DNA of 64,000 nucleotides from Pseudomonadota bacterium. Its GTDB lineage: Bacteria; Myxococcota_A; UBA796; GCA-2862545. Shown piece by piece: positions 21,108 to 23,009 of this stretch (position 1 is the first letter of the stretch; the number at the start of each line of letters is the position of its first letter). The stretch is from the NCBI GenBank assembly GCA_947505245.1, contig CANNIZ010000008.1, positions 62,001 to 126,000 of the forward strand, written 5' to 3'. Made by a program: the position numbers and the translations under genes. The notes under the pieces are model-generated. The model saw only the letters and a program-made list of their open reading frames with translations. It searched no databases and was not told the DNA's origin.

Positions 21108-21452
21108 TCAGGCGAGCGCGTCCTTCCAGGCGTCCTCGTCGCGGCCGATGATCACGCGCTTGCCGACGACGACGATCGGCCGCTTCAACAGGTTGTTGTC
21201 GGCGGCGACCGCAGCGGCGAACGTGTCGGCGTCCGGCGGAGACGTGGCCCAGCCGCGCTCCTTCACGACGGTGTTTCGCGTCGACACCAGCGGGGCGACA
21301 CCGCCCGCCAGCTTCACGAGGGCTTTGACCTCGTCCTTGGTGAGCGGCTTCTTCGCGAAGTCGCGCTGTTCGATGTCAGGACTCAAGTCGCGCACGAACC
21401 CGCGTGCATCACGACACGTCGTTCACGTGCTCTTCCAGTACAAGATCGACAT
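21108..21452 (-). CDS. ArsC/Spx-like thioredoxin-fold protein, probable selenoprotein (TGA as Sec10)
   Basis: Read through the in-frame TGA at 21423-21425, this is a 114-residue protein: MSILYWKST-U-TTCRDARG, then RDLSPDIEQRDFAKKPLT, and the family's late NNLLKRPIVVVGKR block. The start ATG 21452 follows GAGG. The length equals that of complete ArsC/Spx/YffB-like proteins, while starting after the TGA would lose the active-site strand and helix. The redox motif is therefore UxxC instead of CxxC (Sec10, Cys13). A SECIS-like hairpin begins 8 nt after the TGA (see the separate entry). The likely role is a thiol/selenol reductase. It sits at the end of an envelope-protein gene run. The alternative is a nonsense mutation or sequencing error. 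Confidence 0.75.
21387..21415 (-). promoter_or_regulatory. SECIS-like hairpin downstream of the TGA codon
   Basis: In the mRNA, 8 nt after UGA, GUCG pairs with CGAC (4 bp). After a small UGAU/G internal loop, GCACG pairs with CGUGC (5 bp), closing the six-base loop CGGGUU. The loop starts 20 nt after the UGA and has G at its second position, matching the usual description of bacterial SECIS elements (loop about 16-37 nt from UGA, G among the first two loop bases). Confidence 0.65.
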
Positions 21453-21459
21453 GATCACC

Positions 21460-22290
21460 TCAGGGGGGAAAGCCGTTGACGAAGGGCATGACGAGCCCTT
21501 CGAACTGGTTCGGCGTGTCGTCGGCGAAGTCGACCGGGCCGTCGATCGCCAAGCGCGCCTCGTCGATAGCGAGCTGGCGATCGGCGATGAGCGCGTCGAG
21601 TTCGGCGTCTTCGGGGAGGCGGTCGAACGTCTGCAGCAGCTTGCCGAAGTGGCAGGACATGCAGGTCCCGGAGCCGCCAGCGACCGCGACCATCGGGTCG
21701 ACCTCGGGAGCGAGGGCACCGTCGGCGTCGTAGACGGCGAAACGCATCGCGCCGTTCGGCAACACGTCGAGCACCTCGTGGGAACCGTCGGACTCGACGG
21801 AGTTCGAGTGCAGCGACGTGCGATCAGAGTCGAAGTGGACGGTGCGATCGCCGAACGAAACCGAGGAGGCGCTGACGGTGTGTTCGAACGGAGCGGGCAT
21901 CGGGTGCCCGGCTTCCCAGGTCGCGAAGTCCGAGGGGGTGGCGGTGATCGCGTAGTAGATCTCGGGCTCGTAGACGGTGGCGAGGAACAGCTGACCGATC
22001 TCGACAGGGGTTTGAAGTGCGGCGAGGTCGTCGTACGCGGCCTGAAAGGCGACAGCATCGCCGAGTTCGAGGCGGCCGGGGTCGACGGAGAACACGGTCG
22101 CGCCGCCGTCGTCCTGCTCGTGGGAGAGGGCGGCGGAGTCGGGTGCGGCCCCGAGCGACGCGAGGCCCCACCACACGCCGCGGCGAGCGTCGGCCCACGT
22201 CTCGGGGCCTTCGGACGCGGGCGTCCAACGGAGCGCCAGGCCGCCCTGGCAACCTGCGAGGAGCACGAACAGGCTCGCGCGACCGATCAC
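21460..22290 (-). CDS. Lipoprotein with a single CxxCH haem-binding motif
   Basis: The 276-residue protein starts at GTG 22290, overlapping the upstream stop (GTGA): MIGRASLFVLLAGC, lipobox Cys14. The body is an unrecognised mixed domain (EIGQLFLATVYEPEIYYAIT). Near residue 210 is GTCMSCHFGKLLQTF, a CxxCH motif that would bind a c-type haem covalently after export. It is followed by a helical stretch. It is not a recognisable cytochrome class. It lies 7 bp before the ArsC-like selenoprotein gene, which suggests redox work at the envelope. Confidence 0.65.
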   Translation of the reverse strand: MIGRASLFVLLAGCQGGLALRWTPASEGPETWADARRGVWWGLASLGAAPDSAALSHEQDDGGATVFSVDPGRLELGDAVAFQAAYDDLAALQTPVEIGQLFLATVYEPEIYYAITATPSDFATWEAGHPMPAPFEHTVSASSVSFGDRTVHFDSDRTSLHSNSVESDGSHEVLDVLPNGAMRFAVYDADGALAPEVDPMVAVAGGSGTCMSCHFGKLLQTFDRLPEDAELDALIADRQLAIDEARLAIDGPVDFADDTPNQFEGLVMPFVNGFPP

Positions 22291-23009
22291 GGTACGAACC
22301 TCGGCAGGCGCTCGGGATTCGGGAGGGTCGCATAAAGGCGCGCGACCGCGGGGTGCTGAAGGGCGTTGCTCTGCAGCGACCAGCACGCCGCGCCCTTGAT
22401 TTCGAGGTGCATCACGTGATCGTCGGGGAGCGCGAACGGCAGCTCGGTGCGCACCTGCCAGCCGTTGGACATCAGCTTCCAGACGTGGAGATCGACGTCC
22501 ATCGCGTTGCCCAGGCGCGGCTGGGTGACGTCCGTGGCGAGGCCCGCCGCGTGAAGCCGCTTCAGTTGTCCGGGGCGGGAGAAGAACGACAGGAGGCCGG
22601 GCGCGCGCACCCACCGATCGAGCGCGGTGAGCGTGCGGTCGTCCCCGTTCAGCACGTCGAGGATGCGCTGAACAGGTGCGTCGGCGCCTGATACGAGGAA
22701 CGCACTCCACAACACGTCCAGGTCACCCGGGTCGGCGATCGGCATGACCAGCGGGTCCGGCAGCCCCTTGTTGTTTGCCGCGGTGAGCACGCTCTGCACG
22801 GCAGCGGCGAGCTCCGGCCGCTGGGCCGCCAGCGCTGAGAACGCGTCGGCGACAGCGGGGTCGTGCCGGGCGGCGACGACGAACATTCGCCAGGCCGGGT
22901 TTGCGGCCGCGTTGGGCCTCGCGAAGAAGTCTGCGAGCGCCTCGGAGGCGAGTTGGGGATCGGGCTCGCGGTAGTAGCCCGCGAAGAAGCGTTCGGCGGC
23001 GTTGCCCAT
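22287..23009 (-). CDS. Helical protein of unknown function
   Basis: The 240-residue product (MGNAAERFFAGYYREPDPQL) has no signal peptide and is mostly alpha-helical in its first 160 residues (ALADFFARPNAAANPAWRMF, VADAFSALAAQRPELAAAVQ). A beta-rich tail includes AMDVDLHVWKLMSNGW. Repeated helical segments resemble HEAT/TPR-like packing, but no motif is clear. It is tightly packed between a beta-barrel gene and the CxxCH lipoprotein gene, so it is probably co-transcribed. Confidence 0.55.
   Translation of the reverse strand: MGNAAERFFAGYYREPDPQLASEALADFFARPNAAANPAWRMFVVAARHDPAVADAFSALAAQRPELAAAVQSVLTAANNKGLPDPLVMPIADPGDLDVLWSAFLVSGADAPVQRILDVLNGDDRTLTALDRWVRAPGLLSFFSRPGQLKRLHAAGLATDVTQPRLGNAMDVDLHVWKLMSNGWQVRTELPFALPDDHVMHLEIKGAACWSLQSNALQHPAVARLYATLPNPERLPRFVP

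Follow-up and report, generated by a model that had tools for sequence, protein, structure and literature searches.

Selenoproteins of the ArsC family have been described several times. ArsC-like and 'distant ArsC homolog' selenoproteins were reported in 2006 in Desulfotalea psychrophila and Desulfuromonas acetoxidans (PMC1794560), the 2008 GOS selenoproteome contained an 'Arsenate reductase 2' with a UxxC motif, assigned to cd03032 (PMC2398784), and an 'Arsenate reductase-like protein' with a UxxC motif (NF041106) is present in recent catalogues (PMC9312934, PMC13188914). An earlier note on the DNA analysed here, which proposed a gene of this kind from the sequence alone, was right to suggest that the class may not be new, as the 2006-2008 catalogues and NF041106 demonstrate (PMC1794560, PMC2398784). 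No selenoprotein paper that names Myxococcota turned up in a text search of the literature.

We analysed this gene in a stretch of 64,000 nucleotides, called the window, and in related genomes. It very probably makes a selenoprotein, the UGA at codon 10 being read as selenocysteine, and its product would most likely be a selenol/thiol-disulfide oxidoreductase. The features of the locus are as follows.

21108 to 21452, minus strand: complete gene of the putative ArsC/Spx-like selenoprotein, from ATG (21452-21450) to the stop TGA (21110-21108), 114 residues including Sec10.
21423 to 21425, minus strand: in-frame TGA predicted to be read as selenocysteine, codon 10, first position of UxxC (U10, C13).
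21387 to 21415, minus strand: SECIS-like hairpin, the core of which (21408-21391) aligns in register with the family structure, columns 18-35 of the alignment.
21453 to 21461, minus strand: ribosome-binding sequence GAGGTGATC, which adjoins the ATG and overlaps the stop codon of the preceding ORF, read directly.
21108 to 21395, minus strand: apparent 95-residue ORF with a GTG start, equal to the portion of the selenoprotein gene 3' of the TGA.
21460 to 22332, minus strand: neighbouring ORF on the 5' side, in the same orientation, which contains CMSCH (a CxxCH motif) and stops 7 nt short of the ATG.

The ribosome-binding sequence is strong, and translation with Sec starts as MSILYWKST-U-TTCRDARG, with UTTC, i.e. 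UxxC, at the active site. The 114-residue frame contains a single internal TGA (21425-21423), preceded by nine codons and followed by 104. The ribosome-binding site, ATG, MSILYWKST followed by TGA, and 114-residue frame described in the earlier note can thus all be read directly in the sequence. A mechanical ORF search returned only the 95-residue piece that starts with GTG at 21395 and lacks the active site. This call agrees with a reading in which translation restarts at this GTG, the 95-residue ORF being the real gene and the upstream part non-coding. Such a restart has hardly any probability: the first strand and the active site, present in every relative, are missing from the 95-residue form, and the YWKST residues upstream of the TGA are kept as protein in all orthologues.

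Orthologues were obtained from searches of relatives, of the phylum and of one further family. In 19 other genomes of the phylum, representing at least four families, the orthologue has TGA at this very codon, and TGC or TGT occupies it in nine genes from eight genomes. The latter genes are the Cys-containing homologues that the earlier note had expected. Residues flanking the Sec position are conserved on both sides; in the first 12-sequence alignment, in which the proteins aligned over their whole length, Y5, K7, S8, position 10 and R14 were invariant. Conversion of TGC or TGT into TGA within an otherwise ordinary Cys gene, by pseudogene formation or by sequencing error, would also place a stop at codon 10. 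Such events do occur, as in a family member of genome G134 where TGA stands at a Trp codon unrelated to this site, and the assemblies used here are fragmented. Nevertheless, the same codon is TGA in the 19 other genomes, the reading frame is conserved on both sides of it, and covariation in the hairpin described below is limited to Sec forms. The shared position of the TGA refutes a pseudogene or sequencing error, to which we assign a negligible likelihood; an error in one assembly, for which the earlier note had allowed, is excluded.

The nearest genome, G001, which belongs to the same genus, has a Cys form (locus L018). Neither selA nor tRNA-Sec was detected when looked for in this genome, which is only 81% complete, and a recent loss of the Sec trait is possible there. 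The other Cys-form genomes retain Sec machinery; therefore the Cys form is not only an outcome of machinery loss. In one Sec-form genome (G334) SelA is present and a search for tRNA-Sec gave no match, a result that was counted against the selenoprotein reading. The G134 gene mentioned above (contig C82, L117 / L049) is a Cys-form paralogue in which the TGA replaces a conserved Trp (LYUKSTCTTA); this TGA is probably a nonsense change or a sequencing error, not Sec. The gene (row G134b of the tree) is a Cys form although the tree carries it as Sec, and the tree's number of Sec/Cys changes is therefore too high by about one. Scanning the genome collection with the protein produced two distant Bacteroidales loci with 25% identity, which were left out of the analysis, and the sole matches from the plasmid collection were Spx proteins of Priestia and Enterococcus.

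The earlier note had named the presence of Sec machinery as a check on its reading, and selA, selB, selD and tRNA-Sec were all found in the source genome (5.5 Mb; completeness 95%, contamination 1%). SelA scored 466.9 bits (cut-off 268), SelB 273.8 bits (cut-off 242) and SelD 328.5 bits (cut-off 125); the tRNA-Sec scored 71 bits, above the Rfam cut-off, and has the anticodon TCA (UCA in RNA). A binning error is unlikely because the contigs that carry selB and tRNA-Sec agree with the window in G+C and in tetranucleotide composition, with r values of 0.87 and 0.82, respectively, at the high end of the values for other contigs of the genome. The selD gene (L090, contig C14 of genome G000, about 13-822) has an in-frame TGA of its own, in VKAAG-U-ASKLGPEVLG. 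This is the usual Sec/Cys place of SelD, and by its sequence the SelD of the source genome is itself a selenoprotein.

In bacterial SECIS elements the loop is 3-9 nt long with a G in its first two positions, the stem has 4-16 bp, the distance from the UGA is 16-37 nt and the minimum free energy is at most -7.5 (PMC13188914). The window hairpin falls within these constraints: its lower stem GUCG/CGAC begins 7 nt past the TGA (21415-21412 with 21390-21387), its upper stem GCACG/CGUGC has 5 bp, its CGGGUU loop lies 20 nt past the UGA, and its RNAfold energy is -12.2 kcal/mol over 36 nt. The geometry is as the earlier note had described it, but in this one sequence it is weak as evidence. Compared with synonymous recodings of the same peptide, the stability of the hairpin was not exceptional (p 0.31-0.55), and its pairing of 6/7 was often reached with this peptide and codon usage (p 0.44). 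The claim of a SECIS consequently rests on the family comparison: the window hairpin draws its weight from its in-register alignment with the family structure, not from its own strength. The Rfam model SECIS_1 had no match in the genome, and as the same model matched 0/14 control genomes this carries no information; an Rfam scan of the region gave chance matches only.

The family structure is a 7-bp helix, centred about 23 nt past the UGA, with a G-rich apical loop at about 20-25 nt. In Sec forms this helix, formed by columns 18-24 and 29-35 after the UGA, is paired at 94.3% and includes three covarying pairs, with compensatory exchanges of C-G to U-A, A-U to C-G and G-C to A-U. None of 500 shuffles and no slid version reached its values for cells paired and covariation score, and RNAalifold recovered it unguided. 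In Cys forms the same columns were 49.2% paired, no better than shuffles. Against synonymous recoding with codons drawn at the frequencies of the window, 120/126 pairs were observed in Sec forms where 73 were expected, compared with 31/63 in Cys forms where 27 were expected. When one sequence was taken from each of five lineages, 30/35 pairs were observed vs 20.8 expected by recoding (p = 5e-5). One family has twelve members with the core GCGAGGAGUUCCUUGCGC, and the rare codons AGG and AGU that they use fit the stem-loop. In one Sec orthologue, from G051, pairing requires a shift of register, which was counted against the selenoprotein reading. Loss of the stem among homologues, which the earlier note had put forward as evidence against its proposal, was not observed among Sec forms: the stem is kept there, with compensatory changes, and only there. 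In conclusion, the selenoprotein reading of the earlier note is supported by the machinery, the shared TGA, the Cys homologues and a hairpin specific to Sec forms.

From the machinery seen in the genome sequence we infer that ribosomes read the codon-10 UGA as selenocysteine, SelB bound to the hairpin just 3' of the UGA and tRNA-Sec(UCA) directing the insertion. The product would be an ArsC/Spx-family protein of the thioredoxin fold, its active site, U-T-T-C, lying where helix 1 begins. If it works as the CxxC members of the family do, Sec10 would attack a disulfide or another oxidised substrate, Cys13 would resolve the intermediate via a selenenylsulfide, and a thiol partner would then reduce this selenenylsulfide.

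The protein belongs to the ArsC family by its score on PF03960 (49.9 bits, gathering cut-off 24), and its Sec takes the position of Cys12, the catalytic residue in E. coli ArsC. Both observations would agree with a true glutaredoxin-coupled arsenate reductase, which we nevertheless consider unlikely: the score on TIGR00014 (arsenate reductase, glutaredoxin type) is 37.6 bits, under the curated cut-off of 106, there is no adjoining ars gene, and the C-terminal GRP block, kept in the phylum's other UxxC subfamily, is replaced in the window subfamily by [VI]GK, VGF or IGR. The GRP block carries ArsC's third catalytic arginine. The data do not point to true arsenate reductase activity.

From the 12-sequence alignment, AlphaFold2 predicted an Spx/ArsC fold (pLDDT 95.2), and PDB fold matches placed Spx first (TM 0.85), followed by YffB and ArsC-family proteins. 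Among solved structures Spx is thus the closest in both sequence and fold, and the best model is TIGR01617 (Spx/MgsR), which would suit an Spx-like regulator whose UxxC is a redox switch and which binds RNA polymerase instead of reducing a substrate. Such a regulator is very unlikely, as the score of 52 bits is under the curated Spx cut-off of 75, the glycine required for contact with RNA polymerase is not strictly kept (G or S is found there), and Spx-type regulators are known from Firmicutes. It would be more improbable still that the clade is a selenium-dependent Spx relative in which UxxC senses oxidants via a selenenylsulfide and alters RNA polymerase activity outside Firmicutes. A selenol/thiol-disulfide oxidoreductase remains our preferred reading of the product.

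The genes around the selenoprotein gene did not help. None of the window neighbours tested (OmpA-like, CxxCH protein, barrel and others) recurs beside orthologues, even in near relatives, and no shared neighbour linking all orthologues was found. The neighbourhood of CxxCH lipoprotein, barrel and OmpA, presented in the earlier note as new, is not conserved, and since no neighbouring gene is conserved with the selenoprotein gene, it adds nothing to novelty or function.

Other ArsC-type genes with a TGA at the active site were met. A second UxxC subfamily (LICTRTUSTCRKAVALL...GRP) was observed in about 30 genomes of the phylum (L034, L040, L041, L046, L050-L062, L064-L071, L073-L075). Its TGA lies at the same fold position as that of the window protein and is followed by a strong, nearly invariant hairpin, GCAAGGCGGUCGCCUUGC. 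It differs from the window protein in keeping the GRP block, in forming a separate clade in the tree and in being nearer to TIGR00014 (83 bits, still below the cut-off). Its identification with NF041106 was rejected, as it scored <24 bits on that model. A divergent ArsC-family protein in genome G130 (L035) has UTGC, its TGA being followed by a strong hairpin (GCGCGGGGGUUCCUCGCGC), and is nearest to TIGR01616 (nitrogenase-associated protein); it is possibly a third selenoprotein subfamily.

Gene finders truncate the window selenoprotein to the 95-residue ORF, from which the active site is missing, and curated selenoprotein models miss it. The Sec and Cys orthologues together would warrant a family model of their own. 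They also offer a natural experiment on Sec/Cys exchange, as the hairpin is present only in Sec forms and the machinery was undetected in the Cys genome of the same genus.

The ArsC selenoproteins of D. psychrophila and D. acetoxidans likewise belong to the ArsC family and were found by TGA/Cys pairing; they come from another lineage and are likened to the window protein by description only. 'Arsenate reductase 2' and NF041106 share with it the ArsC fold family, Sec as the first residue of UxxC and the existence of Cys homologues. NF041106 differs in that the window protein (31 bits) and its orthologues (23-39 bits) fall far under its curated cut-off of 85. The cd03032 'Arsenate reductase 2' has the UxxC motif in common with the window protein, was compared by motif description and may be the same subfamily; the nearest scored equivalent is TIGR01617. 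Spx of Bacillus subtilis (PDB 1z3e, 3gfk) is the best solved relative (58 bits by sequence) and has a CxxC at the same place; it differs by a Cys where the window protein has Sec and by an identity of only ~27%. A new subfamily of a known kind, separate from NF041106 by score, is a well-supported assignment for the window clade from these sequence comparisons.
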